Origin: Diphasiastrum complanatum
Lineage: Eukaryota > Streptophyta > Lycopodiopsida > Lycopodiales > Lycopodiaceae
Length of the DNA: 64,000 nucleotides
Direction of reading: 5' to 3'
Assembly: GCA_029204225.1 (NCBI GenBank)
Contig: CM055111.1
Coordinates: forward strand, 17,593,019 to 17,657,018
Shown here piece after piece: positions 5,391 to 64,000 of the stretch; the stretch's first letter is position 1, and each line of letters starts with the position of its first letter. The translations under genes and the position numbers were made by a program. The notes beneath the pieces were generated by a model. It was not told the origin of the DNA. It searched no databases and saw only the letters and a list, made by a program, of their open reading frames with translations.

Positions 5391-5525
5391 CATTCCACAT
5401 CTCCTTAGCTTTGGAGAGTGTAACCAGGTCAACTGTGAGACTATCTTCAGTGGAAGATGATAGCAAGACTACTGCCTTGTCATTTTTCTCCCTCCATTCG
5501 CGTAGCTCCTTGCAACTTGCCTAAG
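5391..5525 (-). pseudogene. Family C copia gag scrap fused to element A
   Basis: The minus strand reads SSTEDSLTVDLVTLSKAKEMWNA, close to the gag of the family C copia at about 11930-12060 on the plus strand (SSSIEDSLTLDLATLSKAKEM). It ends abruptly at about 5390, where element A's GAG-pre-integrase region begins. The join is between two different copia families, so it is a recombination or insertion scar and not an original gag-pol arrangement. Confidence 0.65.
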
Positions 5526-5880
5526 TTGCCAAAAACTATAAATACACTATTCTTAGCCCTTATTAACTTTATAAAGTCAATATAGCTCTAAGATTAAAAT
5601 ACATATTGACCTCAAAACTGCCAAATAAACTCAACATGAAAAATCTTAAACTAGTTGACAATTTTTCACACTCTCTCTTCAACTAGTTCTACCACACAAC
5701 TTTGATAGAATGATATCCATTCTAAGTATAGACCTTCTTTCTATGGTTTTATAATAGCCTTCATAATTGATATAGAAAATAGTATCCACATTGGATGCTT
5801 CACTATTTCTTACATCAATTTTACATATCAAGATGTAACTAGAATATGAAGAACCAAATAGAATGTAAATACAATGATTC
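5526..5880 (-). mobile_element. 3' end of a relic related to the 42-48 kb element
   Basis: Positions about 5640-5880 match 42960-43210, the 3' internal end of the young gag-only element; shared words are GATGCTTCACTATTTCTTACA and ATAATTGATATAGA. A polypurine tract and LTR start follow at about 5674 (minus strand GAAGAGAGAG then TGTGAAAAATTGTC). The LTR part (5526-5674) more closely resembles the LTR at 57320-58093. It looks like a fragment of a second non-autonomous element sharing the same 3' internal sequence. Confidence 0.6.
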
Positions 5881-8205
5881 CTCCATATTCTTTCGTCAGA
5901 TGTATTGCAGAGGTGTTATCCATCTGCAAGACCAGAGGCTCATTCCTTGTTTCATCCAATTCGTCCAGGAACTGCCTTAGCCAAATTATCTTGTTGGCCA
6001 TCTTTGCTGCTGCAATGTACTGGGCAACAACGGTCTGCTTCTTGCTAACCCAGAGAACTACTGCTCATGATGAGATGGTGCATCCCATTGAAACGCTTTT
6101 ACAATCGTCCTTTAGGGATGCCCAGCTAGCATCACTATAGGAAAGCATCCTGAAACCTGCATCACGACAATAACACAACTCGTAATCCCTCGTCAATTGA
6201 AGATATTGCAAAATTCGTTTTGCAATCTTCCAATGTGTCGCTCATCCTGAACACTGCATAAGGGATGTCAGGTGGTGTGTTGTCTGCAAGGTACATCAGC
6301 GAACCTATTAGCTTCCTGTAAGGTGTGAGCTGCATCTGTTTTCTCTCTACCTCAGTCTTCAAACAATCATCCTTTGTCAGCACCGTTCCTGCGAGCATTG
6401 GAGTATTCGCTCCTTTGCAGTTCAGCATCCCAAAATCCTCTAGGATTTTTTGGGTGTATCTGGACTGATGAAGGTATAGCTTACCTCCCTCATAGTCCCT
6501 TTCAATTTGCAAGCCTAGGTAACACCTGGCTTCTCCCAGATCCACAATCTCGAAATATTTTGAGATGTCTATCTTCACTTCAGCAATCAGCTGCTCACTC
6601 TTGCAAAGTATCAGAGTGTCATCCACATATACAACCACAGTGATGATCTGCCCATCTGTGACTCTGACATACACATTAGAATCAGCCAACAGTGGCTTGA
6701 ATCCTAATGATTTCAGGGCTTAATCCTTCTTCTTGTACCATTGTCTGGCTGACTATTTCAGACCGTAGATATTTCTATGCATTTTGCATGCATAAATAGG
6801 AAGTGAATTTGAGACATATCCTGGGGGTTGATCCATGTAGACCTCTTCATCTAATTTGCCATGCAAGAAGGCTGTCTTATCATTTGCAATGTGGATCCTA
6901 AGGTCATAAGCTGCTGCATATGCAAATAACAGACATAGGGATGAATGTTTGACGACAGGAGAGAAGGTTTCAGAGTAGTCTATACCGTATCTCTGAGAAA
7001 AACCTTTCGCTACCAGTCTTGTCTTGTCTTTCGTTACACCCGTCTAGTCCGTATTTGAGCTTGAAGACTCATAGCTCATGTGGTGTCGTGTGAGGAACAC
7101 CAGACTTGCATGTTCTGTTCTGGATGTATGCGGCTGTAGCTACTACTTCAGCCCATAGTGCCCTTGTAGCTTTCGAGTAGGCCATCATGCATCTGGCTGA
7201 TTCCATTAGGATCCTGTTCTTTCGTTCAACACCACCATTGTGCTGCAGTGTGTAGGCTGCAATTCTTTTGTGAATGATGCCACAATTATTTCAAAAGTCA
7301 GTGAAGCGATTGGAGATGTATTCACCACCTCCATCTATTCTGATCTGCTTTACTTTGCTGCCTGTGCATCTTTCTGCCCAATTCACATATTCTGTGAATT
7401 TATCAAGTGTTTCAGATTTATTCTGAATGAAATACACTCTGGAAAATTTGCTATAATCATCAATGAAGATTATGTAATACTTTGAATCTCCTAATGAGAC
7501 CACTTTGAATGATCCGTAGATGTCAGAGTGTACTAGCTCCATAATCTTTGTCGTTTTGTAGGAGTCTTTGATGAATGGTGTGCGTGACATCTTGCCCTTC
7601 AAGCATGCATCACAGGTGGTTGAACTGGTTGCATTCGAGATCCTGAACCCTGTTATTGCTCCATGATGGCTTGCTTGCTAAAGTGCCATTGAGTTCATGT
7701 GGCAGAGTCTTCTGTGCCACAAAGTGTTTGGCGAGTCGTCATGAGTCTGATGCACCTGATCTACAGGTAGGCGTACCTTCAAATGATATAGGTTCCCTTT
7801 CCTTCTGCCTCGAGCGATGAGAGTATTGGTACTAGCATCAATCACGTTTCATGCTTGGTCAGAAAACGTCACACGCATCCCTGGATCTGCTATTCTTGCT
7901 ACAGAGAGCAAGTCTTGTTGCAGAGTAGGCACGCACAGAACGCCTTCTAGTCGTCTTTCTCTGCCATTTGTGTTGAGCCATAGTGAACCAATATCGTTCA
8001 CTTGATGTCTAGATCCATCTCCAAGAACTATGAATCTTGAGGGATCTGCACTTCTGAAATCATACATGATTCATGTCATGAAGTGTGAGGTGGCTCCTGA
8101 ATCTAGGATCACCTCATGTGTGTCAGATGTTGATGCTGCACACACGTCTTCTGTTGACAGATCCCCTGATCCAGAGGATCTGTTGATTTTTTAAAATTAA
8201 TTCTT
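5881..8205 (-). mobile_element. Ty1/copia element C, copy 1 (PR-IN-RT-RNase H)
   Basis: On the minus strand this carries protease (about 8110: VILDSGATSHFM, then FRSADPS and VLGDGS), integrase (7291-7602: LVHSDIYGSF, FIDDYSKFSRVYF, GGGEYISN), RT (about 7060-6290, with VVYVDDTLILC) and RNase H to about 5881. Many stops and frameshifts break it. It is the same family as the plus-strand copy at 10728-15178, in inverted orientation. The 5' side stops upstream of protease at about 8205, so LTR and gag are missing, and the 3' side stops at the relic at 5880. Confidence 0.85.
6162..6689 (-). pseudogene. Copia C copy 1 RT C-terminal part
   Basis: This 175-codon stretch is the longest intact frame of the copy. 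It contains VVYVDDTLILCKSEQ (the copia YVDD active site), YFEIVDLGEARCYLGLQIER, and TPYRKLIGSLMYLADNTPPDI. The last motif is normally T-RPDI, so it shows a small change. The frame then runs into RNase H with a frameshift. It is part of an inactive element. Confidence 0.8.
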
Positions 8206-10469
8206 TCTTACTTTTGCCTATCAGCAGAGACGGTGGGTTCTTCTTGAGATTATCTTTCTTGTTTAAAGACCCAGATTAGGCAAAAGAAAATAGATTCTCA
8301 TTGTAGTATATTTTGTCCTACATGTTAGAGGACAACTCAGGGTCGTCTCTCTTGAACGCACTTACATTCATACATAGATGCAAGCCAAGAACATTCATTC
8401 ACAGATCAACATACAACCCAAATGAACATTCTGTAGATTCTACAGCTACCTACTCTGAAAGTGAACTGAATCAGATCCTACACTTCTTTACTTGCATAAA
8501 TTGACAAAACAAGAAACAAGAACTAATCTATAGCATTTTAGAAGTCCAAGAATCAAGAAACCAACCAGCCTTTTGATTCTTGAACATCCCAAGAACATCA
8601 AGAACTGGATTGTAAAGAGATATGCAAGAACTACACCACAAATCCAGCCTATTTAGTTTACCTGAATGCTGGTTCCTACATTAATCCACAGACAAGAAAA
8701 AAAACTAATCCACTCTAGGAAAGCATCAAATCTAATCCACTCTACAGTCCACAACCACACAGAAAAGGAGGAAAGAGCAAGATCATAAATGCATCACTCA
8801 AGAAACAAACATGATCAAGAAGCTCAATAGATGCACCAAACTCGTGGAGGCTCTTCTCATTTCAGCATGGAGTTGATACAATTCACAAAAAGCTCCTCTT
8901 CACAAAGAGGGAGTCTCTTAAATAAGCAAGAGAGCTCCTTAGGTGGCATCCTAGTCGAATTTCCACATTTCACAATTTACAAGTGGATTAATGCTCTCCA
9001 CTAGAGATCACCATCAAAAGGTGGCTCACTCTACTTTCTTTAAGAGGGGTCTACTTGCATTTAATACATTTGCCTAGAAATACTAGTCCCTACGTGGTCA
9101 TTCCATCTTCCAGGATTCACCATGAGGCTTACACAGTTCTTACTTGTCATTACTAACTAGTATTCCTCGGCTCTCAGTCTTTATTAGTCTCGTCTTCTCA
9201 GAGACCTCCTCGGTCTAAGGTGAGAGGTGCTCTTGAGCTGCTCTGTCCAAGTATCTTGGGGATTCGTCAAAATCAGCCAACATCATCCCACCTCTAATGT
9301 GTTGCAGGACCCATTGCAACTCATATTGGACGATGTCGCTCTGCTTTGCATTGGCATCTTCGATCGTCACTTGGAAAAGCGTAGATCCTCATTCGCTTAC
9401 ATAAAACCAAGTGCTTATTGTTGCTAGTCTTTATCACAAAAATATTTTTCACAAATTGCCGCAATTGGATTAGAATGTCTTATTGCTATAGGTGGTTGAC
9501 ATTCTCAAAGTGGAGAGCTCTCAGCAACTTCACAACTTGCATGCTCGAGTGCTTTCCATGTGTCTCTTTGTTTTGTCACTTGTATCTTCCATTAATGGTT
9601 TCATCTTTGGTTTCATGACAGATTCTATCTTTTGGGAGGTCTATATCCTCCATTCGCTTCTGGGTGTTTCCGTGGTTCTTCTCTCAGTTGAAGTTTCAGT
9701 CTCAAGGAAAACCTTCCATCTACAGGTTGCACAAACTTTGATTATCAGGCTCAAGAGAATGGACTCATAAAAAATTGGTGGTAGGAACAGATTTGGATGG
9801 AAGGTTTGATAATGGTAAGAAAACATGATGAAGGCTTGGTGAAAGGATGAAGGAACTGATAGTTCTACAGTTGCAGCCTTGGACCCTTGGAATGTCGAGC
9901 TTTGACCACCACTTGTTGGGTGAGGAGATTGCTCTATTTTGCAGGTTCATGGTTGTATTCATCTTTTTGATCCGTTACTTTTGGATCTCTTTGGGCTTCG
10001 AAGGAGGGGATTCAACTATCATTGCTCCAAAGAGTTTCTTTTGATCAAAATTGATCTGACTCATCTGTTACTTAAGTTTTTGTCCTTTCCTCCTCAGCTT
10101 TGGATCTTCCTCTTTAGTTCTTCTAGCTGCCTCACCTGCTTCTTAGGTCTTTGTTTGGCTGATCAACTATTGTAGGTGGCAATTGGTCTCCGCAAGACAT
10201 TTGCAATGATCTTTCAACTGCTTCGGTAGGACTATAAAAACCTAGGGATTTCTCAGAAGAACAGTAAACTGATGATAACATTTCCTGTTGGTTTGGTGGC
10301 GTTTCTCCACAGGTGTTCTTTTGGTTGCATGCAACAAGATCTAGTCAGATCTTCACTAGGCAATCCTTACATTTACTCACATGCTTTGGTTCATCTTCTT
10401 GTGTAGATGAGGCTATGCAAGTGGATGGTGGCTTTCATGGAATGGAAGCAAATAATGGATCTGGAAAAG
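8206..10469. other. Unassigned, probably decayed retroelement sequence
   Basis: No domain was recognised on either strand. A minus-strand TATA-like motif (CTTATTTAAGAG, about 8921-8932) in a stretch with A-rich and polypurine runs (about 8540-9220) could be the promoter of an old LTR. Plus-strand frames at 9227-10537 are short and Leu/Phe/Ser-rich without a known fold. At about 10305-10375 the sequence resembles 38490-38560, just after the chromovirus, so part of this may be gypsy-derived. Confidence 0.35.
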
Positions 10470-10727
10470 AGGTCTTCATCAAGTACTTTTATTGTCAAGA
10501 GCAAGATCAAGAGGTTGATCTTGAAGGGCTTCAATAACACAAAATGAAAGGTGGCAATTCGGAGCTAGTCAAGAGCATCAAAGGGAAGCCAAGTGGAAAA
10601 GATAACTTAAATATGTTTTCGTAGGTGTTTAAAAACTCAAGTAAGGTCAAAGGAACAACAAGAAAGTGTTGTTCAAGTTTACTTTACTTGTTTTATCTCA
10701 TGTTTGAGCAATTTCTTGTGAATGTGC
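10470..10727 (+). pseudogene. Block homologous to the unknown C-terminal region of the gag-only element
   Basis: This plus-strand stretch matches the minus strand of about 44010-43740, which encodes residues near 710-790 of the young gag-only protein. Shared words include GATCAAGAGGTTGATCTTG, GTGGCAATTCG, AGCTAGT and CTCATGT, in the same order. The frame here is broken (stop at about 10536). It is cut off by the LTR of copia C at 10728. It shows that the unknown region belongs to an older, dispersed family. Confidence 0.65.
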
Positions 10728-11634: not shown

Positions 11635-11635
11635 G

Positions 11636-11648
11636 TGGCATCAGAGCC
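11636..11648 (+). other. Primer-binding site (initiator tRNA-Met type)
   Basis: TGGCATCAGAGCC differs by one transition from the usual plant copia site TGGTATCAGAGCC, complementary to the 3' end of initiator tRNA-Met. It lies one base after the LTR end and about 100 bases before the gag start codon. Confidence 0.8.
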
Positions 11649-11749
11649 TCTCTATTGTCATAATCTGACATAGCCAAGAAGCAATCAAGATCCAGGAGGC
11701 CAAGCATTCAGACGAACAACCATCAACAACAGAACAGACTTCAGAAGCA

Positions 11750-12760
11750 ATGTCTTCAATTAGCAGCATACATAACAAGATCTGTACAATTCTTGATCCT
11801 TCAGGATCTAACTTTCTAGCTTGGAAAGTTAAAACATCACTGATACTCAAGGGCGAAGGTTTATTCCCCTAGGCGGATGGCACAAAAGAGATGCCTACGA
11901 CATTAGGCAAAGAGCTACGTGAGTGGAGGGAGAAAAACGACAAGGTATTAGCCTTGCTATCTTCATCCATCGAAGATAGTCTCACACTTGACCTGGCTAC
12001 ACTCTCCAAAGCTAAGGAGATGTGAGATGCACTACTCACAGAATTTCAAACGAAATCAAGAAGTCAAATCATGATGCTGGAAGATCAGCTGACAAATCTA
12101 TAGTGAGATGAGAAAGACCTCACTTATTTCGTAAGGAAGATGAAGGATTTGTTTCTATAACTATATAACTCTGGAGCAGAGAATGCAGTGTCAGCTGAGA
12201 AGCAGCTCACTTACCTGTTGAGAGCCTTACCTAGATCATTCTAGACAATGAGGACCCTGCTCGCGAAAGATCCTACCATGAACCTCGAAAAGATGATGTT
12301 CAAGATTCGAGAGGAAGTCGAGGCAAGAGAACATCTTGATCACAAAGATGGTTTTGACCAGGCCCTCTACGACAACAAAGAAAAATCCAAGAAACAATTT
12401 ATGCCTAAGAGGGAGTCAAATCAGAGGCAGGATCGTGATCAGCAAGCAAAGAGGACCAGCAAAGTCAACTGGAAGAGCAAAGGGAGGTCGAAGCAACAAG
12501 GTGGAGAAAAGAAGACTTGTGTGAGATGCAGAAGAGACGGGCACACGGTTGATACATGATGGCTCAATCCAAAAATTGAGTGTGTCCACTACCACAAGAA
12601 GGGTCATGCAGCCATGGATTGCCAGAACTTGAGAAACAAATCAGCGCAGAACAAACAGGAGAGTAACAACAGTTCATCCTATGTCGAGGAGCTCGAGAGC
12701 CCAAAAATGGGCGCAGAAAGACCGAACAAAAACTGTTTGATCACCTATATCTGTGAAGAC
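11750..12760 (+). pseudogene. Copia C gag
   Basis: Starts at ATG (MSSISSIHNKICTILDPSGS) and shows the UBN2-type gag core (FLAWKVKTSLILKGEGLF, LSKAKEM, LEDQLTNL, FVRKMKDLF). A basic linker leads to the CCHC knuckle CVRCRRDGHTVDT, whose last Cys is now a stop codon. A second knuckle-like CVHYHKKGHAAMDC follows at about 12580. At least seven in-frame stops interrupt it. Confidence 0.8.
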
Positions 12761-12789
12761 GTGTGTTCAGCGTGAACATCTGACACACA

Positions 12790-14784: not shown

Positions 14785-15178
14785 TAAAGAAACAAAACGT
14801 TTCTAATTACAAAGCCTTGCTAGCTTTCAGCCCTCAACCCGACGAAGACATTTGCGAACTCGAAGATCTGGAGACACAAAGCACGAAAAGTTTTGCGAAC
14901 ACAAAAGTCAAAGGAAACGAAGACGAATGGTTCATGAACACGAAAGTCAAAGCAGACGAAGACGAACGGTTCGTGAACACGAAAAATTCACGAATGAGAA
15001 TCTTTTGCGGTCCAGTACGAGAGAAGGCAAACGACCAAAACAAAACCAACGACAGAAACAAAACCTTCTCCTGCCTACATGCTCCAAAGAGTACCAGCAG
15101 GATCATGCAAGTACCCAGAAGTACAGATTTCTGATCTGATGGTATGACATCGACAGATACATTTTAGGTTGTGGCTTA
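14785..15178 (+). repeat. 3' LTR of copia C copy 2, truncated, with U3 tandem repeats
   Basis: Matches the first ~330 bases of the 5' LTR and stops near GTTGTGGCT, after which the two LTRs no longer align. It carries a 39-bp tandem repeat (starts at 14897, 14936 and 14975, each with GAACAC and AAAGTCAAA/AAATTC) that appears only once in the 5' LTR. Such U3 amplification is common in plant LTRs and suggests a different source copy or later slippage. Confidence 0.65.
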
Positions 15179-19293: not shown

Positions 19294-20195
19294 GTATGGG
19301 TGTGCTGGAGGAAGAAGGTTCAGGGTGGAAAGGCATCATTATTCCACAACGTGGAAACCCGTGGGTTTTCGCGAGTTCATTAATTTCTGCTCTGCAAATA
19401 TTTCGATCAGAAGTCTTTGGAATCGCTAAAGCATTGGATGCAAAGCGTTCAAATGCCATTCAGTCGGCCGTATTATCTGTCCTCAGCTTTTTCTGGGAGA
19501 TATGCAACCTATGCACCAGTTCTAGTGATTGGGGTTTAGACTTTACAACACTGGCTCAACATTTACCATGGCTTCCATTAATCTACAATGGCATCGTCTG
19601 TGGTGGAATTTGCAGCTGGTTGGAAATACGAGCTCTGCGTGGAGTGAACGCATCCGTCGCCACTTTGATTTACATGACTATTCCGGTCTGGGGTGCATTT
19701 TTCTCTACACTTCTCCGACACAAATCTCCGAGCGAGCTTGAACTTGTGGGAGCGCCAATGATTCTGCTAGCAACTATGTGGACTAACAAAATGACTTCTG
19801 AACAGCGTACCAATAGTTCTCAACCATACCAAAATGATCAGGGTCTTACTAGACAGAACAGAGATCAGAGTAGCCATTTGAATCGTCGACAGAAATTTTC
19901 CAGGCCAGATGAAGGCTATTTGATGGAAAATGTCCTGGCATCGACGCTCCTCAGTGCTGATCATCTTCCAGGAGTCATGTTAATATCTCAACTAAAATCT
20001 CCGTTCTATACTGCTCAAACTGAGAGGCTTGTCAAAGATGTAGATGTCATATTTCAAGAGAACACGGATTGTCTATCCGACTTTACCACCATTTTTAAAC
20101 CTCCACAATGCGCCGAAGTTCATAATACGGCTGTAAATGTTGGATCTCCATGTTTTCTGGGCACTGAAGAGCATGTCTGTGATATTGGCGCATGA
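19294..20195 (+). CDS. Transporter exon 4 (second EamA repeat and C-terminal tail)
   Basis: Begins after TGTTAG (19293), completing a Gly codon, then MGVLEEEGSGWKG. It contains the second five-helix repeat: NPWVFASSLISALQIFRSEV, AVLSVLSFFWEICNL, WLPLIYNGIVCGGICSWLEI, LIYMTIPVWGAFFSTLL and ELVGAPMILLATM. A hydrophilic tail of about 130 residues follows to the TGA at 20193. EamA proteins usually end soon after the last helix, so the tail is unusual; no domain is recognised in it. No stops interrupt the exon, which argues that the gene was functional until very recently. Confidence 0.8.
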
Positions 20196-42290: not shown

Positions 42291-42326
42291 CTAGGAGGCT
42301 CAAAATCATTCATCTCATGGATGGAG

Positions 42327-42973
42327 TGTGAAAAATACAGATCCTAAGTGGATCTAAACTCCAAGATCATTGGCTTGAATGCTTGCACTCCAGACTACAT
42401 AAGCTAGGAATTGGCAACACATTCTATGCTACCTAGAATGCAAAGAACTTGATCAAAAAGCATTTATCACAAATGGAAACTTCCATAAACATCAAGTGCG
42501 GCCCAAAATAGCATTATACAGTCCATAATACATCAGCCTACCACTTTTGGAAAGCACCTAAGATCATACACACAAAGCTTGAACTCAATCACTACACAAT
42601 GCCAACAATGGAAGGAGAACCCAATAGAAAAATCTCTCATTATGCAAATGAATACAATGGATCTGCTCCAACCTGTTTCTCCACGGCCTACCTGCTATAT
42701 ATAGCTGAGAGAGATGACTCTCTCTCCTCTCTCTAGACCCTCCTTACCTAAAATATGCCCTATATAGGTAAATTTGGCATATATGTCCAAAATACATGAA
42801 AATGGACTCATTTCGAAGGTCTTGAAGTTTGACACTTCTTCATACTGAAAAAATACACTTACTAAAAATATCTAGACCTGTTTCACACGTGTGAAAAGTC
42901 AGATCCTAAACTATGTGCCATTTTTAGCAATTTTGGCCTAAAACTAGACAAGGAAATGTTGACAATTTTCACA
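42327..42973 (-). repeat. 3' LTR of the gag-only element
   Basis: Same length and ends as the 5' LTR. It is followed on its right by CTCCCTCTTCAAC, the complement of the polypurine tract. Confidence 0.95.
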
Positions 42974-42986
42974 CTCCCTCTTCAAC
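42974..42986 (-). other. Polypurine tract
   Basis: Minus-strand GTTGAAGAGGGAG directly upstream of the 3' LTR start TGTGAAAA; it primes plus-strand synthesis. The same tract is next to the LTR at 63058-63070. Confidence 0.88.
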
Positions 42987-45900
42987 TTAACTTGCTAGTT
43001 TTACAACACTACTTTGTTCCAACTTAAGAATGATCTCCATCATCAGAATAGATCTCTTCTCAAGGATCCTAATATGTACAAAATAGGACACAACATAATT
43101 GATATAGATAATAGTGTCCATATAGGATGCTTCACTATTTCTTACATCAATTTTACATAGAATCATAAAAATGGTACATGTAAAAGAACATAGAATCTCA
43201 ATTAATGAATTCCTCCATGTATCCATCTCTGGTTTCTCTGTAAAATAGCAGCAAACAAGTTGTAAATGAAAGTGATCAACAAGTGTTTGCATGCCTCCTC
43301 CACATTTCACTATACATATAGTGAATGCAACATGTATCTCCATGAATGAACTTCCATCACCACCTTGCCTTTGTAGATCTTCAATCCATGAAAGCCTTTG
43401 AGTGAATGAATGCCAAAAAGATGTGTTCCCTACTCCATTTGAATGACCAAAACCTGAACTTGAAATACTTGAAGTACCTCCACAAGATTTGCACACAACG
43501 CTTGATCCTACAATGTCAACAAGTTGCCAATTTGCCAACACTAGAATACTAGATCTTGAACTTTGTTCAAAAGAAAACATATTGACCACTTCAATACCTT
43601 TCAAGATCTGAATGAATTCATGTACTTGATCATACAAACCAGCAATGATAACTATTCCATCTCCAAGATCCAAAGGATGCAAAACTATGGAACTAGTTTT
43701 ATTGAAATTTGACAATTTCAACACATTGACATAACAATGTTCATACATGAGATTAGGCAAGTGAGGTAGAGTAAGAAGACACTTCCTTGCAGCTCCAAAG
43801 ACCTTACTTGAACCTTCAAGAACCTGTAAAAACAGATCCAAAATGCCTTGACCATTTGTCTCTTCTTTGATGCTTTTCACTAGCTTCGAATTGCCACTTG
43901 TCTCTTGGTGTTGATGAAGCAATCCAAGATCAACCTCTTGATCTTCCAATAAGACATCAAAGATCTTGCATATGTGAACATCTTCAGATCTGAAACTCTG
44001 AAGATACTCCCTCTCAAACACATGATTAAGATCCCACAAGATCTCATCAATGCTCAAATTTGACCCTTCACTATAGTTAGTGAAAACAATGCCACCATCA
44101 TAAACCAAAAGATAGATTCCAACATTTCCATTTAACATGAAGTAGAGTAGGTGAAGATGAGTATCAAACCTAATCAAAACAGCCCTCTTGAGTTCATAAC
44201 AAACCTCAATAAGCTCACCAATGATATCTCCCTTGCCTTGAAGAAGTTGCCACTTGAGTTGCTCCATGTAGTCTTCTTCAACCAACCTTTTGCCATCTTG
44301 ACCATGAATGAACAATCCACCACAATCATAGAATGCTTTGAGTTGATGAAGAGATGTTAGATCCATGCTTTGGATCTTCCCAAGAACCACTCTTCCATTG
44401 CCCTTTCCTTCACAAGACTCCCTCTTAATGCTAGCACCACAAAAGTTAGAAACCTCCCTCTTGATAGTTGCACCATAAGAAGTAGAAGACTCTTGAATAT
44501 TAGAAGCCAAGAAAAGAATCCTTAGTACCTTCAACATAAGAGTGATTGAAGTACTCTCTCTTTTCAAACATGAACTTCTACTCAATGATTTAGGTAATGA
44601 GTCATATGATAATGATTCTTCCTCACTATCGTTCATAAAAACATCATTCAAAGTACATCCTACTTTGAACACTTCACATACTTCTCTTCCTTTTGACTTG
44701 TGATCTCCCTCACCAAGTCTCGTGATAGAAACCTTTGATCTACTCTTTTTATGAAGAAATGTGACACCACTTGTTGCACAAATGACTTTATCACAAAAAG
44801 ATGTAAAAGAACCATTTCCTTCAAGCATGCTCAAAGCACCATCATCTTTTCCCACATGATTACATACATCAATATGAAAAGAATTAGAAGAATAACCATC
44901 TTCTTGCAAAGAATGACACTTAGCATCTCCATCTTTTTCCATATGAACAAACAAGTCATTAGCAACAATCACTTCCAAAGAAGAATCTTCATCAACTCCA
45001 TTGATGAAGTTAGCTCCTTCCTTACCTTTTCCATTTTTGCACTTGCCATCTAGCACCATTGAAGAACCACCAAGCCTTGGAAGTCCATGAGTAGAAGAGT
45101 ACAAACATGATGCTAATTTAGCTCCACATGACTCCATATGACTAGTAGGTAACACTAGTGCATCTTCAAGATCCAATGGATCCAAAAAATTGACCATAGA
45201 TTCACCAAAGCTTGCCAAGTTAGCACAACAATTATCATCTCCAAGAAGTACATTAGATCTCAACCTAGATCTAGCATTTTGTTTCTTATGGCATTCATTT
45301 GCAAAATGTCCTTTTATCCCACAATAAAAACATTTGAACTTGGACTTATCTTGCTTCCTACTTTGCAAAGAAGAAGAATGCTTTCCATGCTCCAAACTAC
45401 CTTGCTTGGACCACTTGCCTTTGAACTTGCCCTTTGTGAAAAGAGCTTCTTCATCTCCACCTTGTGTTGATGCACCACCACCTTTGGCTTGCAACCTATG
45501 CTCTTCAGCCACCAAGATCTCTTGCAAGTCATTGACACTTGGCAAGGACTTTTGTATAGCAAAGCATTGTACAAGGTTAGAATGTTCATCAAGCAAACCA
45601 TTCAACATGACTTGAACTAGTTCCCCATCCTTTATGCTTTCATCTATGCATGCTAGATCATCATTCAAGGATTTAACCTTCAAGACAAATGAATGTGCAC
45701 TCTCTCCCTCTCTTTGACAACTTTGGAAGATTTGCCTTCTTAGGGTGAGAACCCTAGATGTGGATTTGGACTCATAGATCTTCTTCAAAGCATTCCATGC
45801 TTCACTTGAAGAAGTACATTTACCAACTTCTTTAAGAAGTTCATTGGTAACATTCATCTTTATGATATGTAAGGCTCTTTTAGCCCTTCTATCAAAATTT

Positions 45901-46061
45901 AGTTGCTCTTGAAGAATTAGAGGTCTTTCTTCAATTCCCACAACTATATCCATTAGCTCATTCAACTCTAGTAAAGACTCCATCCTCACTTTCCAAGTTG
46001 AATAGTTTGTAGAGTTTAACCTCTCTTTAGCTTCCAACATGATTCCACCATTGGATGTCAT
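42987..46061 (-). CDS. Gag with a long unknown C-terminal region (1024 aa)
   Basis: First ATG of the frame is at 46061 (MTSNGGIMLEAKERLNSTNY); upstream codons in the same frame have no ATG. Residues ~8-185 are a copia Gag (DUF4219/UBN2 type: NSTNYSTWKVRMESLLEL, EAWNALKKIYESKS, SLNDDLACI). The CCHC knuckle CFYCGIKGHFANEC is at ~245-258. From ~265 to 1024 no domain is recognised: an acidic/Ser-rich part, a repeat (GATIKRE / GASIKRE at ~580-600), then a hydrophobic part with LLYFMLNGNVGIYLLVYDGG, DQEVDLGLLH and CKSCGG. The protein ends just before the polypurine tract. The frame is free of stops over 3 kb in AT-rich DNA, so it is coding or only just became free to drift. Confidence 0.88.
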   Translation of the reverse strand: MTSNGGIMLEAKERLNSTNYSTWKVRMESLLELNELMDIVVGIEERPLILQEQLNFDRRAKRALHIIKMNVTNELLKEVGKCTSSSEAWNALKKIYESKSTSRVLTLRRQIFQSCQREGESAHSFVLKVKSLNDDLACIDESIKDGELVQVMLNGLLDEHSNLVQCFAIQKSLPSVNDLQEILVAEEHRLQAKGGGASTQGGDEEALFTKGKFKGKWSKQGSLEHGKHSSSLQSRKQDKSKFKCFYCGIKGHFANECHKKQNARSRLRSNVLLGDDNCCANLASFGESMVNFLDPLDLEDALVLPTSHMESCGAKLASCLYSSTHGLPRLGGSSMVLDGKCKNGKGKEGANFINGVDEDSSLEVIVANDLFVHMEKDGDAKCHSLQEDGYSSNSFHIDVCNHVGKDDGALSMLEGNGSFTSFCDKVICATSGVTFLHKKSRSKVSITRLGEGDHKSKGREVCEVFKVGCTLNDVFMNDSEEESLSYDSLPKSLSRSSCLKRESTSITLMLKVLRILFLASNIQESSTSYGATIKREVSNFCGASIKRESCEGKGNGRVVLGKIQSMDLTSLHQLKAFYDCGGLFIHGQDGKRLVEEDYMEQLKWQLLQGKGDIIGELIEVCYELKRAVLIRFDTHLHLLYFMLNGNVGIYLLVYDGGIVFTNYSEGSNLSIDEILWDLNHVFEREYLQSFRSEDVHICKIFDVLLEDQEVDLGLLHQHQETSGNSKLVKSIKEETNGQGILDLFLQVLEGSSKVFGAARKCLLTLPHLPNLMYEHCYVNVLKLSNFNKTSSIVLHPLDLGDGIVIIAGLYDQVHEFIQILKGIEVVNMFSFEQSSRSSILVLANWQLVDIVGSSVVCKSCGGTSSISSSGFGHSNGVGNTSFWHSFTQRLSWIEDLQRQGGDGSSFMEIHVAFTICIVKCGGGMQTLVDHFHLQLVCCYFTEKPEMDTWRNSLIEILCSFTCTIFMILCKIDVRNSEASYMDTIIYINYVVSYFVHIRILEKRSILMMEIILKLEQSSVVKLAS

Positions 46062-46269
46062 GATGCTAAAATCTTCTTGTGTCCTTAGGCTCTGTTCTAA
46101 TGCACCTAGCACTCTCCTTTCTCTCAATAAATGAAGAAGGAGAAGATCTTAAAAGATTTAGAACCCTAAATGACCTCTATCTTGAAACTATTTGGCTTTC
46201 AAGCATAGAAAGGAAGATTGAAACACATGCAACACTTTGCACACACTAAGAATGGATTACAAACTCAAA

Positions 46270-46760
46270 CCAACCTGAACACACTCTTGCTTAAGCTCTC
46301 AAACTTTCCAGCAAGTGACCAAATCAAGTTATGGTGTGAAGAGTTACTTGCATTCTTAGAAAATACCCAAAACTAGGATGCCAAAATTACCTAGTAATGA
46401 ACAAACTTGATCAACATATGATCACCACACTAAGATATTGATTCAACCTGTAAAACCACATGTAAACCACACTTCTAAAAGTTTATAAACTCCAGCAAGT
46501 GATAAATACAAGATTTAGAGGTGAATGAATGAGCACACTTAGTGAATCACAAGACTAGCTTCACTATCTTGTCAAAATTTGGTGTTTAGATGTAGATCTA
46601 AGATCACTTCACATGAGAATGTTCCTCAACCTGTTAAGAACCTGAAAACACACTTGCATAATGGTTAACACCTTCCAGCAAATGCTCCAATCAAATTACA
46701 TAAGGAGAGTTACTTACATGCTCAACAAAGTACACCAAAATTTATGCCAAAATTGATGAC
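46270..46760 (-). repeat. Three degenerate ~184-bp repeats in the leader
   Basis: The words CAACCTG...CCAGCAA recur with starts at 46308, 46492 and 46675 (spacing 184 and 183) between the primer-binding site and the start codon. They could be a packaging signal, a promoter-proximal element, or neutral duplications. Confidence 0.65.
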
Positions 46761-47223
46761 AATCTTTACAATATGCTCTTCACAATGGAGCTTACAATAT
46801 GTTCACCCAAAAAAGGGGATCTTTCATCCAAATGGGAGCTTTGCTCAGCCTTTAGGAGAATTACAACTCACTCAAAAGAGCATTTGTCATCCACTTAAGG
46901 AGAAGTTTCATCCACTTAAGGAGAGTGTTCATCCAAGAATGGAGATTGTCAACAATAGGATTGAAAAGAACATTGTTAGTATTGAATATGCACAAGCCTC
47001 ACAATCAACAAATGATTAGGTGTTATGATCTGATCCAAAATAGTTTCTTTTCAGTCTCTGATCTTCAATAGACCTGAAATATGCTTTTGATCCACAAGTT
47101 CAACTCAAAAAACAAAGGTTAGTAAAATTTGATCAACAAAGCAATGCAAAATCATGCTAGAACTTGATCAAACATCCAAATATCACCAAAAATGGAATAC
47201 TTACTATGAATAGAAGCCAACCA

Positions 47224-47235
47224 GCTCTGATACCA
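47224..47235 (-). other. Primer-binding site (initiator tRNA-Met)
   Basis: Minus-strand TGGTATCAGAGC matches the 3' end complement of plant initiator tRNA-Met exactly and directly touches the LTR. Confidence 0.92.
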
Positions 47236-47603
47236 TGTGAAAAATACAGATCCTAAGTGGATCTAAACTCCAAGATCATTGGCTTGAATGCTTGCACTCC
47301 AGACTACATAAGCTAGGAATTGGCAACACATTCTATGCTACCTAGAATGCAAAGAACTTGATCAAAAAGCATTTATCACAAATGGAAACTTCCATAAACA
47401 TCAAGTGCGGCCCAAAATAGCATTATACAGTCCATAATACATCAGCCTACCACTTTTGGAAAGCACCTAAGATCATACACACAAAGCTTGAACTCAATCA
47501 CTACACAATGCCAACAATGGAAGGAGAACCCAATAGAAAAATCTCTCATTAAGCAAATGAATACAATGGATCTGCTCCAACCTGTTTCTCCACGGCCTAC
47601 CTG

Positions 47604-47613
47604 CTATATATAG
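47604..47613 (-). promoter_or_regulatory. TATA box of the 5' LTR promoter
   Basis: Minus-strand CTATATATAG lies about 270 bases inside the 5' LTR from its U3 end, in a GA/CT-rich setting. The same box is in the 3' LTR (42694-42703). Transcription would start about 30 bases downstream, so R-U5 would be about 340 bp. Confidence 0.7.
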
Positions 47614-47789
47614 CTGAGAGAGATGACTCTCTCTCCTCTCTCTAGACCCTCCTTACCTAAAATATGCCCTATATAGGTAAAATTGGCATATATGTCCAAA
47701 ATACATGAAAATGGACTCATTTCGAAGGTCTTGAAGTTTGACACTTCTTCATACTGAAAAAATACACTTACTAAAAATATCTAGACCTG

Positions 47790-47805
47790 TTTCACACGTG
47801 TGAAA
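47790..47805. promoter_or_regulatory. G-box palindrome in U3
   Basis: TTTCACACGTGTGAAA is a perfect 16-bp palindrome with a CACGTG core, the binding site of plant bHLH and bZIP factors. It lies in U3, upstream of the TATA box. The other LTR has it at 42891-42906. Confidence 0.7.
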
Positions 47806-47904
47806 AGTCAGATCCTAAACTATGTGCCATTTTTAGCAATTTTGGCCTAAAACTAGACAAGGAAATGTTGACAATTTTCACATGGAGCATCAAGTAGATT
47901 GTGC

Positions 47905-50019: not shown

Positions 50020-52000
50020 ACAAACTTAGCCACTACTACTCTTCTAACATTCAAGCCTTCACACAGCCACTTCTGAATCAACTGATATGCTGTGGCATTT
50101 TAGACTTGGCCACCTTAATTTCAATAGTATTCAGCAAATGTCTGCTCAGAGTCTAGTACAAGATCTGTTGTCTATTAGCAAGCCAACTTCTCCGTGCGAA
50201 AGTTGTATTATCAACAAGCATGCTAGAAGCCCTTTCACTTCAGATTCAGTTTATACTTCCAAAGGCTTGCTTGGCCTTGTACATAGCGACATTTGTGGCC
50301 TGATGCAGACTGCTTCGACAGGGAGAGCTCTCTATTTCCTAACCTTTATCGATGACTTCTCACGAAGGACTGCTATTTACTTTTTGAAGAACAAATTCGA
50401 AGCATTCAAATTCTTCAAGTAGTTCAAGGTGTTTGTAGAAAATCAGACCCAGAGGAAGATCAAGTCTCTATGCACAGATGGAGGGGGGAGTATATTTCCA
50501 CAAAATTTAAGGAGTGCTACAAGGCCAGCGAAATACATCAAAAATACAACTAGTCCAATGGTATAGTTGAATAGAAGAATCAGACACTCATCAAAAGTGC
50601 CAAGAGCATGATGGCCCATGCCTCTCTTCCAAAGAAAATTTGGACAGAAGCTATTACTTCAGCTGTCTATTTGTAAAATTGATCCATTACCAAAACCTTG
50701 AATGGCAAGACACCTTATGAGGTGTGGACAGGATCGAAACCATCATTCAAAAGTATTTGAGTGTCTGGATGCATCGCTTTCGCTCAGATCCCTGAAGATC
50801 TAAGAAGAAATCTAGATGACAAGAGTAGAAAAATGATTTTCATCAGCTATTCCCCAAACCACAAGACATACAAGCTTTACAATCTGGATACCGAGAAGGC
50901 ATTCACCACTAGAGATGTCATTTTTGTGGAAGACCGATTCATCGACCACAAAGGAAAAGCTCCATCGATTTCCTATCCCAGAGCCAACAATTTGGAACTC
51001 AGCATTGATTAACAACTTGACTCTGACTCCGACAAAGTGATAGACCCTCGACAAATCGAACCATCTCAGAGGATCAAAGTTCAACCTAGAAGATCGAACT
51101 GATCCAGACATCCTCCATCCTTATTCGTCGATGATCCAGCCTATTACTTTGTGCAGGAACCAAACATTGTTTCAGAGGCAATGTCGACACCTGATGCTGA
51201 CTAGTGCAAACCAAAATGGACACTGAATTTGATTATCTCATCGAGAATCAAACATGGACTATTACCGAGTTGTCAAAAGATCGAAATCCAATTCCATACA
51301 AATGGATATTCAAAGCAAAGTATGATGCTGAAGGAAAATTAAATCGATACAAGGCTAGACTTGTTGCCAAAGACTACTCCCAGATTTCAGATCTGGATTA
51401 TCTAGAGACCTTCAGCCTTTTCATTAAGCATGCTTCGATCCATCTACTACTCTCCTTTGTAGCTACAACCGATCTTGAAGTCCACCAAATGGATGCCTAG
51501 ACTACCTTCCTCAACAGGGCTATCGAAGAGGAGATCTACATGTCATAGTCAGAAGGATACAAGCTCAGGGGCAAGGAGCACCTTGTATGCAAAATTCACA
51601 AGGCACTCTACGGGTTGAAACAGTCACCTAGAGCTTGGTTCCAAAAAATCAATGTATTTTTGATCGAGAATGGTTTTATTTCAAACTCAACAGACTCGAA
51701 TGCCTACTTCAAGTCTGTATCAGATTACTTCATCATCATTATTCTCTATGTAGATGATACACTTCTATTCAATATTGATCTGAATCTGATGAAGGGATCG
51801 AAATGCATGCTATCCCAGGAGTATAAAATAAGTGACATGGGTCGAGCCCACTACTGTCTCGAAATCCAAATCCAAATCCAACGAGATCGACCCAACAGAT
51901 TGATTTTCATCAGTCAGCAATGATATCTCAACAATGTGCTGAAAAAATATGGAATGGCCAGCTACAAACCAAGTCACTTTTCACTTGACTCTGGACATAA
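50020..52000 (+). mobile_element. Ty1/copia element D, copy 2 (IN and RT)
   Basis: GAG-pre-integrase (LWHFRLGHLN, CESCIINKHARSPF), integrase (LVHSDICGLM, FLTFIDDFSRRTAIYFL), IN C-terminus (50761-51012), RT start (YKWIFKAKYDAEGKLNRYKA), ALYGLKQSPRAWF and IILYVDDTLLF. It ends inside RT near 52000; RNase H is missing. A D-type LTR follows at 52050. Frameshift near 50490 in the second catalytic region and several stops. The LTR links it with the 5' half of the chimera at 40.7-42.3 kb. Confidence 0.85.
51615..51923 (+). pseudogene. Copia D RT segment with intact YVDD
   Basis: 102 codons containing ILYVDDTLLFNIDLNLMKG and EYKISDMGRAHYCLEIQI; the latter is the copia FEMKDLGEAHYFLGIEI-type block. 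It is preceded by QSPRAWF and followed by a stop at 51921. Confidence 0.8.
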
Positions 52001-57319: not shown

Positions 57320-58093
57320 AAAACTAGAAAATAAATCTTGATCTAGATTACCAATTTGACACATAACAAATATGGATAATCAATAAACAAGATCAAAGAC
57401 CCAAATCCGAGTCCACTCGTGTGTACTACAGGCTGTAGTATGGCCTTAAAACTAAGAAACAAGTAGAAATTGATTTGGTTTCATTTGGTCACAAAAACTC
57501 AATGTACATAGTGAACTAGCTTGAGATTGCCATTGAGCTCCAAAACGTTTTCTCTCTTCTCACTATGGGAGCTTGGAATACATAGCAAATTTGACTTCCT
57601 TCTTGAAATTAGGTGGATTTCCAGCATGCAATAAGGAAGTTAACTCACCCTTCTTTCCCTAAAATGAAACTCTGGCCTAGATCCTAGACTTATGCTTGGT
57701 AGGTAAGACATCACCAATATAGTGCACCAATGGATGAATGGACCCAAGAGAACCATGTATAGGCATGAAATGAGATAAGATGGAGAAAATGTCTCTTTCC
57801 ACGAGTTACATCATTTTATAGCAGGTCCAAACCTAGTTTCAAACTTTGGTTTCCCTCCATAATAAAAAACCCTACTATTTATGTGACTATATTCAATGTC
57901 TCTACTACTCAAATTTGAATCTACTAAAACTCGTGTACTACACTTTCCCACACTTTCAAAAAGTGTTTATTCAAATGAATTTAGACTAATATAACTTTGA
58001 AAAGTCAAACTCTAAGTCTAATATGAAAATTGGCCTCAATTGCCAAACATATAAATATGACCAAAATAGCAAAACTAGTTGAAATTTCTCACA
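57320..58093 (-). repeat. Solo LTR of a copia B-like family
   Basis: Aligns with the LTR at 61115-61711 in its R/U5 part (CTTGATCTAGATT, TTCTCTCTTCTCACTATGG, GGAAGTTA) and with the LTR end at 5526-5674 in its U3 part (minus sense GGCCAATTTTCATATTAGAC). It ends (minus sense) TGTGAGAAATTTC at 58093. No internal retroelement sequence adjoins either side and no clear target duplication was found, so solo or truncated. Confidence 0.65.
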
Positions 58094-60179: not shown

Positions 60180-61110
60180 ACTGTACTTTCACATGGTATC
60201 AGATCCAAGTACAAGGGCTTGAATCATTGATCAAATCAAATCCATTTTTAGCAAGTATTGGTGCTAAAAACTAGTTTTGTGAGGGCGAGCTAGAAGCTAA
60301 GGTTTGGTGAGGGGATTTGATTCCAAAGTTTGTAGGGTTCAAAATCCATATTGTTCACACGTGTGAGCATCTCTGAACTTGCAATTAATGTATGATATTC
60401 ATTTGATCATTAAAAATTGATTTTGAGAGATCTTGATGTGATTATTAAGTCACTTACAGGTCTTGAAAGTACATCAAGAGGTGTGAGGGAGATGTGAGGG
60501 AGTGATAGAACTGAGATTATAAGTCCATTTGTTGGATTAGAAATTTAATTTGAGTCAAACACTACAAGTGTGAGACCTTTGTGAGTTTCAAAGTTAATCA
60601 AATCTATTTCTTGTAGTAAGATGGGATCTATTGGAGTATACCTTCTAGAAGCTAGTGAGAGATTGAATTCTACTAATTATGCTATTTGGAAGGTTAGGAT
60701 GGGGTCACTAATGGTGCTCCAAGACTTTATGAGTTCTTGATTGAGGATGAAGATGAACCTCTAGGTGCACATGAGTTAGTGAGATACAAAAAGAGATTTA
60801 GGTTTGCACTTCATTGTGTGAGGATGAATTTGAGCAATGAGCTTTTGAGAGAACAATCATTATGTACAAGTGCTAAAGAGGCTTGGAATTATTTAAAATT
60901 AATCTATGAATCTAGCAACACTTCTAGAGTACTTATGCTTAGAAATCAAATTTTGCAAAGCATTAAGAGAAGTGAGGAGAGTGCACCTGATTATGTGCTT
61001 AGAATCAAGTCTCTAAACAGGGAGTTGGCTTCCATTGGAGAGAATATTCAAGATGGAGAGCTTGTATAGATTGTTCTTAATTGGCTAGGAAATGATTTTT
61101 CAAATTTGGT
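60180..61110 (+). pseudogene. Copia gag fragment with primer-binding site (plus)
   Basis: TGGTATCAGATCC at about 60196 follows CTTTCACA, as in the LTR family of the 42-48 kb element. After a ~430-bp leader, gag begins MGSIGVYLLEASERLNSTNY, has a frameshift near 60720, and continues FALHCVRMNLSNELLREQ, CTSAKEAWNYLKLIYES and RIKSLNRELASIGENIQDGE to a stop at 61069. It aligns with the Gag part of the 1024-aa protein. It is cut at about 61110 by copia B's LTR. The leader contains TTCACACGTGTGAG near 60355. Confidence 0.78.
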
Positions 61111-61114
61111 CCAA

Positions 61115-61711
61115 AGCTAGTCAACAAAATCTTGATCTAGATTGGCAATTTGACAAATAACAAGCATTGATAATCAAATCAAAGATCAAGAACATAGATC
61201 CGAGCCCACATGTGTGAAGAGAAGCCTGTTGTACGGCCTGTAGACAATGTTTAAAGTGTACTAAGTGTTGGTTTCATTTGGAGCAAAGAAAAAAAATTTA
61301 CATAGAGAGCAAATCTGAAATTGCCAATGTGCTCCAAAAATAATCTATCTTCTCACTATGGAGAGATGGAATACATAGCAAAACTTACTTTCTTTGTAAA
61401 GTTAGGTGAATTTCTAGCATGTAATAAGGAAGTTATCTCAACCTTTTTGCCCTAAAATGAAACCCTAGCCTATTTCCTAGAGTCATGCTTGATAGATAGC
61501 TAGTTGGTCAAAATCTCATCATAAATCAAGGTCTAGATCCTATAAAGTAGGGATCTCTACTAAATAGACACAACCACTTCTTTTGACTCGAGCTAGCCTA
61601 CTTTAGGAGTAGATTGCCACATGGCACTTTGGCCATACATGTGTGGAATCCAATTATAGACAAAAATTTACAATATGCTACATGGCTACATTTGCCAAAG
61701 TTGGCAATTTT
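61115..61711 (-). repeat. 3' LTR of copia B (minus)
   Basis: Starts (minus sense) TGTGAAAAATTGCC at 61711, directly after a polypurine tract (TTGAGGAGGAG). The other end lies near 61115, against the gag fragment. It belongs to the same broad LTR group as the gag-only element (same terminal TGTGAAAA and neighbouring polypurine tract) but is clearly diverged. Confidence 0.7.
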
Positions 61712-62402
61712 TCACACTCCTCCTCAAATCTAGCCTTGGAAACAATAATGCTTTTAACAATCACTCCAATTAAAAATCTAAGCTTGACAAATGAATCTTT
61801 AGGTAAAGATTTAGTAAACAAATCAGCCAAGCAACTTGATGATGGCACATGTTGGAGCTTGATCTCTTTGGCTTGCACTTTCTCCCTCACAAAATGATGA
61901 GCAATCTCGATGTGCTTGCTCCTTGCATGGAATGTAGGATTAGTGGCAAGTGATTGGGATGATTGGTTGTCACAATAGATGATTGGGATCTCTTCCTTGA
62001 TGACATGTAGCTCCACCAATAGCCTTTTGAGCCACAAGACCTCCTTGCATGTTGATGTCAAGGCCTTGTATTTGGATTCTATGAAAGATATGGAGACTGT
62101 ATCTTGTTTTTTGGAAAGCCATGATACTAATCCATCACATAGAAAGGTGGCAAAAGCACTTGTTAATTTCCTGTCCACTTTGTCACCCGGAAAATCCGAG
62201 TCACTATAGGCTCTTAAGCCAATATTAATCCCTCTATACAATATGCCAAAATTTGTAGTAGATGAGATATATCTAAGAACTCTTTTGGCCATCTTCCAAT
62301 GTGAAACTAAAGGACTTTGCATTAATTGACTTAACTTTCCAACACTGTAACTAAGATCAAGTGCAGTTATAGTCAAATATGTTAAGGAGCCTATAAGACT
62401 TC
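61712..62402 (-). pseudogene. Copia B RT end and RNase H, interrupted
   Basis: Minus-strand LIGSLTYLTITALDLSYSVG, KMAKRVLRYISSTTNFGILY, SDSDFPGDKVDRKLTSAF, SISFIESKYKALTSTCKEVL and HARSKHIEIAHHFVREKV. RNase H acidic residues: D of SDSD is present, the STEAEY Glu block reads FIESKY, and CDN is intact. Only about 220 residues are present because another element is inserted at 62402. The frame is open over this stretch. Confidence 0.85.
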
Positions 62403-63057
62403 TGTGAAAAATACAGATCCTAAGTGGATCTAAACTCCAAGATCATTGGCTTGAATGCTTGCACTCCAAACTACATAAGCTAGGAATTGGCAACACATTC
62501 TATGCTACCTAGAATGCAAAGAACTTGATCAAAAAGCATGTACCACAAATGGAAACTTCCATAAACATCAAGTGCGGCCCAAAATAGCATTATACAGTCC
62601 ATAATACATCAGCCTACCACTTTTGGAAAGCACCTAAGATCATACACAATAGCTTGAAGACAATACACACAACAATGCTCTCAATGGAGGAAGAAACAAT
62701 GACAATGATCTATTGATCTCAATGAAGCATACAAAAGGTTTCTCCAACCTGTTCTCCATGACTTCCCTACTATTTATGGATGAGGAAGATGACTCTCTCT
62801 CCTCTCTCTAGAAGGTACTTGACCCTAGATATTCCCTATATAGGAAAAATAGCTAAAAATGGCTTATATGACCAAAATACATCAAAATGGTCTCATTTTG
62901 AAGGGTATGAAGTTTGACACTTCATCATACTGAAAAAATACAGTAAATAAAAACATTGTGGCCTGGTTCACACGTGCGAAACTCCAGAACCAAAACTATT
63001 TACAATTTTAGCCAATTTAGGCCTCAAACTAGCTAGGAAATGTTGACAATTTTCACA
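62403..63057 (-). repeat. 3' LTR of the probable autonomous partner
   Basis: 655 bp with the same ends as the gag-only element's LTRs. Its first ~245 bp (62403-62647) differ from theirs at about 3 positions; the rest (R start and U3) is strongly diverged, including a different TATA-like box (CCATAAATAG near 62770). The G-box palindrome is degenerate here (TTCACACGTGCGAA). It is inserted in copia B's RT; ACTTC (62398-62402) is the likely left target duplication, but the right end is outside the window. Confidence 0.85.
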
Positions 63058-64000
63058 CTCCCTCTTCAACATTGGATGCTAGTTTCAACATAGTCTTTGA
63101 GCACATTCCAAGATTAGATCTATGCATTAAATATAGGTCCTTTCCCAATGGTTTGGTGAAGATATCAGCCACACACTCCTTTGAAGAGACATGTTGAAGC
63201 TCCACCTCTTTGGCAATGACTTGATCTCTCACAAAATGGTGAGCAATCTCAATGTGCTTGCTCCTTGCATGAAAAACAGGATTGCTTGCCAAGCTTTGGG
63301 CTGAAAGGTTATCACAAAGTATGATTGGAGTCTTCTCTGGTTCCAGCAAGTGAAGATCCAATAACATCCTCTTGATCCAAAGAATCTCCTTGGTGCATGT
63401 TGTTAATGCCTTGTACTCGGCTTCGGTGGAAGATAGAGAGATAGTTGGTTGCTTCTTTGATAGCCATGAGACCACTCCATCTCCAAGATAGATTGCAAAG
63501 GCACTTGTTGACTTCCTATCCATTTGATCACCTGCAAAATCTGAATCTGAAAATCCACAAAGGTTAGGTGTAGTACCTCCATACAAGATGCCAAAATCTC
63601 TAGATCCCGAGATGTATCTAAGTACTCTCTTTCCTAGCTTCCAATGAGCCTCACTAGGATCTTGCATAAATTGACTTAGTTTACCAACCACAAAGCTTAG
63701 ATCAGGTCTTGTGATGGTTAACCATATAAGAGATCCTATTAGCTTTCTATAGAGAGTAATGTCCTTGAAGGATCTTTCATTACTTCTTGTAGTTAGCTTT
63801 ACATTTGATTCCATAGGAGTAGAAACAACTTTACAATCTTCCATATGAAACCTTTTTAGAATAGAGTTAACATACTTTTCTTGACATATGAATGTAGATT
63901 TAGAAGTTCTAATAATCTCTATTCCTAAGATATAATGAAGTTCACCAAGATCTTGAATTTCAAACTCTCTTTTGAGTGCCATCTTGATTTCATCTATATC
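63053..64000 (-). CDS. Copia Pol C-terminus: RT end and RNase H, intact to the window edge
   Basis: Open to position 64000 with no stop. RT connection QDLGELHYILGIEIIRT, VVSTPMESNVKLT, LIGSLIWLTITRPDLSFVVG; RNase H with FSDSDFAGDQMDRKSTSAFA, LSSTEAEYKALTTCT, ILCDNLSAQSLAS and HARSKHIEIAHHFVRDQV. Catalytic D, E, D and the His-rich segment are all intact. The stop codon TGA is formed across the LTR boundary: the polypurine tract codes for VEEGV and the LTR's TGTGA gives the stop. An intact Pol plus a shared LTR make this the best candidate for supplying proteins to the gag-only element. Confidence 0.9.
   Translation of the reverse strand, partial: DIDEIKMALKREFEIQDLGELHYILGIEIIRTSKSTFICQEKYVNSILKRFHMEDCKVVSTPMESNVKLTTRSNERSFKDITLYRKLIGSLIWLTITRPDLSFVVGKLSQFMQDPSEAHWKLGKRVLRYISGSRDFGILYGGTTPNLCGFSDSDFAGDQMDRKSTSAFAIYLGDGVVSWLSKKQPTISLSSTEAEYKALTTCTKEILWIKRMLLDLHLLEPEKTPIILCDNLSAQSLASNPVFHARSKHIEIAHHFVRDQVIAKEVELQHVSSKECVADIFTKPLGKDLYLMHRSNLGMCSKTMLKLASNVEEGV

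Follow-up and report, generated by a model that had tools for sequence, protein, structure and literature searches.

How a retrotransposon that carries no recognisable working enzymes could have moved recently, and what the long open frame behind its Gag encodes, are the questions raised by a long terminal repeat (LTR) element in the genome of the lycopod Diphasiastrum complanatum. The element occupies positions 42327-47882 of a 64,000-nucleotide stretch (assembly GCA_029204225.1, contig CM055111.1, positions 17,593,019 to 17,657,018 of the forward strand), hereafter the window, in whose coordinates all positions are given. It is a complete minus-strand LTR element, young and of copia type. 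It is probably a semi-autonomous copia Gag donor that relies on the enzymes of a partner and retains a dead, diverged and still open remnant of pol. Its main parts are as follows; in residue numbers, the codon preceding the ATG (46064-46062) is residue 1.

42322..42326, no strand: target-site duplication TGGAG, left copy
42327..42973, minus strand: 3' LTR, 647 bp, with 2 differences from 47236-47882
42974..42985, minus strand: polypurine tract TTGAAGAGGGAG, purine-rich, adjoining the 3' LTR
42987..46061, minus strand: single open frame, Gag and C-terminal region, 1024 codons and a stop
45291..45335, minus strand: CCHC zinc knuckle, 17.8 bits, under the Pfam cut-off of 20.8, with the motif present
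45483..45983, minus strand: Ty1/copia Gag domain PF14223 (Retrotran_gag_2), E-value 5.3e-22 in Pfam
46065..47235, minus strand: leader, 1.17 kb, containing 17 upstream ATGs and a direct duplication of about 147 nt (70%)
47224..47235, minus strand: primer-binding site TGGTATCAGAGC, directly after the 5' LTR
47236..47882, minus strand: 5' LTR, 647 bp
47883..47887, no strand: target-site duplication TGGAG, right copy

The LTRs, primer-binding site, polypurine tract and target duplication make up the full set of cis signals of an LTR retrotransposon. The 5' LTR terminus reads ...CACA on the minus strand and is followed without a gap by TGGTATCAGAGC, presumably a match to the initiator methionine tRNA. 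The two LTRs mismatch at 42643/47552 and 42773/47682. Since two differences in 647 sites point to a recent insertion at usual rates, the element is likely to have been inserted recently. A search for splice sites around the leader gave no convincing pair, and an Rfam scan reported nothing at gathering thresholds. The frame opens with the gag ATG at 46061, ends with the stop at 42987 and lies within 1053 stop-free codons; in 300 dinucleotide-Markov simulations of the element interior, no open frame exceeds 220 codons. In Pfam, PF13961 (DUF4219, E-value 2.3e-06) lies immediately N-terminal to PF14223, and the Gag domains and the knuckle are confined to residues ~16-258. PF14223 is the copia-type Gag of the Ty1/copia superfamily; of the pol order that also marks this superfamily, integrase before reverse transcriptase (RT), the RT core alone is detectable in the element. 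The original prediction, made from the letters of the window, had described the paired LTRs with their two differences, the duplication, both priming sites, the 1024-codon frame and a copia Gag with its knuckle restricted to the N-terminal part, and every one of these features was recovered. A plus-strand gag relic related to the Gag of the element lies at 60613-61124, where it adjoins one of two related repeats of about 375 bp (57333-57705 and 61127-61498; 76%). The differences between the two gag sequences fall as 42/47/87 over the three codon positions, so that Gag has evolved as a protein.

A candidate source of the missing enzymes lies about 15 kb from the element at the edge of the window.

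62403..63057, minus strand: 3' LTR of the putative autonomous partner, 84% identical overall to the LTR of the element
63056..64000, minus strand: pol of the partner, RT end (RVT_2, E-value 1e-9) and RNase H, 315 codons open to the window edge
42327..42572, minus strand: block of the element LTR towards U5/R, with 243/246 positions shared with the partner LTR from 62403 and an abrupt edge at about 42572
42951..42987, minus strand: U3 terminus and polypurine tract of the element, 36/37 identical to the partner

Judged by its visible pol end, the element at 62403-64000 is probably the autonomous partner; the original prediction had made no mention of it. The last part of this pol, presumably RNase H from its motifs, resembles the other copia pol of the window. 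The LTR of the partner is inserted into a further copia element (61678-62402), within the part that encodes RT and RNase H. The element and partner LTRs are related as a mosaic: the first 60 nt at the U5 end are identical, and positions 42573-42950 agree at 279/375 sites against 243/246 in the neighbouring block (Fisher p 6.5e-20). A TATA-like CTATATATAG at 42695-42704 would place the mosaic boundary ~90 nt downstream of the start site, the position of R being putative. Such a mosaic would be expected if the two elements share machinery and templates are switched in R. The conserved block could alternatively result from strong selection on R-U5, but its abrupt edge favours exchange. The sharpness of the mosaic also makes the partner assignment testable from sequence.

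The middle of the C-terminal region carries a resemblance to RT, which was first spotted by eye and then tested across the whole C-terminal region by profile-profile alignment against four types of profile (RT, RNase H, integrase and linker).

44013..44321, minus strand: diverged copia RT core, residues 582-684, from profile-profile alignment
44091..44102, minus strand: YDGG at the place of the copia RT motif YVDD

Alignment of the entire C-terminal region by hhalign with a 47-row profile of the copia RT core gives a score of 35.3 (E-value 4e-4, probability 35%) in the register FLNG, EEEVYMEQ, YGLK, YVDD, FE. This score is reached by none of 520 shuffles (maximum 23.7) and by none of 160 local block shuffles (maximum 25.2). 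Among 85 other frames of at least 90 residues in the window, six score higher, all of them copia RT, and the rest stay at or below 20.0; Gag scores 14.2, and the C-terminal region read in its two alternative frames 17.2 and 14.3. Removal of row P0004 raises the score to 39.6, and two disjoint halves of the remaining 46 rows give 36.3 and 41.5 in the same register, with 0/300 shuffles as high for the reduced and half profiles (maximum 26.4). When the shuffle tests are pooled, 0/980 reach the score. A tblastn search of the window with the element frame also finds RT at 3632-3210 (E-value 0.076), aligned in the register of the RT core. Since YVDD is replaced by YDGG, polymerase activity is not expected, and from these alignments the middle of the C-terminal region appears to be a decayed copia RT core that has lost the YVDD aspartates.

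Despite this decay the C-terminal region is open and in part has the signature of codons. Its own composition predicts 36.7 in-frame stops, and each of 200 simulations has at least 21, but none is observed, the two other frames of the same strand holding 34 and 76 stops. The 3-base periodicity of the region, 0.0268, exceeds that of all 270 equally long overlapping background windows (maximum 0.0225). In windows of 140 codons it peaks at residues 281-490 and 561-700, where 0.55% of 549 background windows are as high, is lower at residues 491-630 (22%), borderline at 701-840 (4.6%) and unremarkable beyond. The parts of the region and its two older relics in the window are as follows.

44385..45227, minus strand: residues 280-560, strong codon periodicity over about 281-490
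42990..43517, minus strand: residues 850-1025, coding signature weak; the final ~77 codons match an older relic at its 3' end
10388..10726, plus strand: older relic of the C-terminal region, with stops; the LTR of another element starts at ~10727
5654..5888, minus strand: older 3'-end relic, covering residues ~948-1025, the polypurine tract and the LTR edge

The first relic is found by tblastn with residues 667-786 at 10388-10741 and by nhmmer at 10460-10773. It is interrupted by the copia stretch 10727-15176, which belongs to one copia family with 5372-8151 in the opposite orientation (85.7% over 1.09 kb). Within the second relic, positions 5793-5827 are identical over 35 nt to 43125-43159 of the element, the aligned surroundings differing at 47/207 sites (about a quarter); this run is possibly a cis signal.

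Taken together, the RNA of the element would be packaged, reverse transcribed and integrated by the partner family, and the element probably supplies Gag to the shared particles. Co-packaged RNAs of the two would have exchanged R-U5 through a template switch at the first strand transfer. The C-terminal region may descend from a copia pol that has been mostly lost or has diverged past recognition, and selection would hold its frame open, as the ~37 stops expected and the 0 observed suggest. At present this region most likely serves as an extension of Gag that is tolerated, and not as an enzyme.

Several results weigh against a Gag donor with a pol remnant. The partner reaches past the window edge, so that its gag, integrase, primer-binding site and 5' LTR lie outside. 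HMMER profiles of RT are weak on the C-terminal region: the real score is reached by 51/2000, 86/2000 and 52/4000 shuffles in three runs, and the run with 86/2000 puts its best alignment elsewhere in the region. Pfam RVT_2 is not reported in the element frame, and an AlphaFold single-sequence model of residues 490-760 is unusable (predicted local distance difference test, pLDDT, 35.6). The RT signal came from the profile-profile comparison. Gag itself is unremarkable in the periodicity test, and the test is therefore not complete. The relic comparisons have no codon-position bias, the differences being 38/29/26 over residues ~660-785 (p 0.28) and 12/15/20 over ~948-1024 (p 0.32). Because both relics are short and broken, the lack of bias argues only weakly against constraint in the last third. 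The last ~77 codons thus resemble an old 3' end under read-through, and for the part that precedes them the evidence points both ways. These gapped counts replaced ungapped ratios of nonsynonymous to synonymous substitution (dN/dS), which agree in direction: one relic pair gives 0.59 and 0.71 in two cuts and the other pair 1.19, with 0.085 for Gag over 37 codons and saturation over 130. In the pair covering 950-1009, amino-acid identity is above the null (P 0.01), which points in the opposite direction, and another frame behaves likewise (28 vs 27).

The remaining enzymes of pol are not detected by profile comparison in the C-terminal region. Integrase scores 17.4 (maximum 24.3 in 100 shuffles); frames outside the profile at 50048-50419, 4884-5468 and 4216-4911 score 143.8-178.4, and several top-scoring controls are rows of the profile itself. 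The linker/SH3 profile scores 14.5 (maximum 21.4 in 100 shuffles), and frames that carry this domain, some of them outside the profile, score far higher. RNase H scores 13.1, a value reached by 203/240 shuffles in a run with no positive control. A frame-shifted RNase H in the tail had looked plausible by eye and is unsupported in all 3 frames, with partly independent controls: the strongest two (649 and 580) are rows of the profile, and the independent two (69.6 and 42.6) match its first 24-30 columns only. Protease was sought only through Pfam and within one row of the integrase profile and was not recognised. With RNase H, integrase and linker undetected, most of the C-terminal region is not demonstrated to be pol, and residues ~280-560 and ~700-850 have no assigned domain. 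An nhmmer row (E-value 0.18) aligns the tail with pol at an equal distance from the LTR. At lax gap costs, tail DNA 43064-44000 matches the neighbouring copia element at 61720-62409 better than all of 300 shuffles (z-score 4.0; 1.9 for the reverse-complement control), and the partner pol better than all except 6/300 (20/300 for the control). At strict gap costs the figures are 97/300 for the neighbour and 1/300 for the partner, the latter at a non-colinear place, and in a global test 33/200 shuffles (0.165) equal the real pair and 0/200 the reverse-complement control. Because the outcome of this comparison is mixed and changes with the gap costs, it does not prove descent from this particular family.

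The account that comes nearest to the Gag donor with a dead pol agrees with it on mobility and differs on the cause of the open frame. It is possible, at a clearly lower probability, that the frame is kept open without any function of a C-terminal protein, stops and frameshifts being disfavoured and the amino acids being nearly free, since RNA stability or the balance of Gag would suffer if a long stretch behind gag went untranslated. RNA decay would provide the rationale for avoiding such a stretch. The absence of stops where ~37 are expected, combined with the extreme divergence of the RT core, and the lack of codon-position bias against two relics support this account. It fits less well with the strong codon-type periodicity over residues 281-490 and 561-770, though this may be inherited from the ancestral pol, and the relics that speak for it are broken and short. 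If other copies prove intact, a comparison of dN/dS with the depletion of nonsense codons would tell a protein that is used from a frame that is merely open.

Repurposing of the dead RT is unlikely, yet not negligible: the C-terminal region would act in trans, for example as a component of the particle or by interference with the autonomous element. That the region is fused to Gag, open and codon-periodic and keeps an RT-like register after the loss of the YVDD aspartates is consistent with such a use, and the single intact copy in the window, with no sign of conservation, argues against it. Somewhat more doubtful is the proposal that a Gag-fused dead RT has stayed translated and re-evolved as a trans-acting protein that shapes or restricts the shared particles, R-U5 exchange keeping the two elements matched.

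A captured host gene or a wholly new domain is improbable as the source of the C-terminal region. In its favour, nothing beyond Gag and the knuckle passes the curated cut-offs in Pfam, NCBIfam, PHROGs and PDB sequence searches (one of these scans being limited to the C-terminal 767 residues). Among the weak Pfam matches CVNH ranks first (E-value 0.014, 16.5 bits vs a cut-off of 24.5), PDB returns by sequence zinc-knuckle rows alone (E-value 0.18-0.49), and viral contigs give no match. Residues 280-560 still allow this interpretation. However, the RT core lies in the middle of the region, and the protein database search that found no match for it missed Gag as well, so that its silence is weak, the database itself containing plant copia proteins. 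That an autonomous element was disabled recently and arrived dead is very improbable: this would suit the single intact copy in the window, but the frame is intact and the RT is too diverged for a recent loss given LTRs that differ at 2/647 sites.

A semi-autonomous Gag donor of this kind can be set beside known elements. The TR-GAG elements were reportedly defined in a 2015 paper. One of them, AT5TE33540, with a 562-residue Gag, transposes in Arabidopsis ddm1 according to excerpts of PMC8704663. As excerpts of PMC8704663 and PMC9784723 describe the group, the likeness lies in two LTRs, Gag in the only long frame and no other enzymes. The lycopod element has two LTRs with a primer-binding site and polypurine tract, a Gag domain in its only long frame and no functional pol domain, the RT core lacking YVDD, integrase and linker being undetected and RNase H undetected with partial controls. 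It differs in that its 1024-codon frame continues for ~760 open residues past Gag and the knuckle, so that it does not encode only Gag. The original prediction is borne out in that the element is recent, complete in structure, gag-bearing, apparently non-autonomous and akin to TR-GAG, and extends past Gag with a signature of coding type. Its statement that no pol enzymes follow holds for recognisable working enzymes and had missed the diverged RT core. The roles in packaging, localisation or competition that it suggested are neither backed nor contradicted by these results. The further proposal that the entire extension is a new protein region is not supported, since the middle matches a decayed RT core, the tail is weakly coding and the last ~77 codons match a relic without codon bias.

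The arrangement itself is already known from wheat, where, according to PMC11302176, the gypsy element RLG_Quinta carries Gag and DUF1 in one frame and has RLG_Cereba as autonomous partner; the claim of an undescribed system was accordingly too strong. The comparison of the two elements concerns their arrangement. Both have one frame with Gag and an extra domain and no RT or integrase function, both share conserved LTR termini with an autonomous family (here the putative partner, 36/37 at the U3 terminus and polypurine tract), and in both the half of the LTR from near the TATA box is conserved between partners (PMC11302176). RLG_Quinta belongs to the centromeric gypsy (RLG) elements, and 935 of its full-length copies were analysed (PMC11302176), whereas the present element is Ty1/copia, with one intact copy, and its extra region is partly recognisable as dead RT. 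A literature search for non-autonomous Copia elements with Gag and a replaced or unknown domain returned, in one library and under the terms used, only the wheat report PMC11302176. RLG_Sabrina and RLG_WHAM, termed semi-autonomous in excerpts of PMC9744471, are alike in that Gag is kept, RT and integrase are lost and mobilisation by a partner is presumed; they differ as gypsy elements that retain protease, and these excerpts mention no dead RT. In Onsen, most LTR recombination takes place in R, at the first template switch (excerpts of PMC5668417), and the LTR mosaic found here fits the same step; the Onsen exchanges take place within one family, whereas here the exchange would have involved a Gag-only element and a presumed partner. 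The element thus resembles a copia counterpart of the wheat partnership of Gag and an unknown domain, and it offers one example of what the unknown domain of such elements may be, a reverse transcriptase that has eroded but stayed in frame.

Two further frames lie elsewhere in the window. A 299-codon frame at 19296-20195 encodes an EamA transporter (E-value 4e-10) and is possibly a piece of a host gene, and a frame at 35867-36562 matches RVT_1 (E-value 4.9e-12), the reverse transcriptase of a non-copia family.

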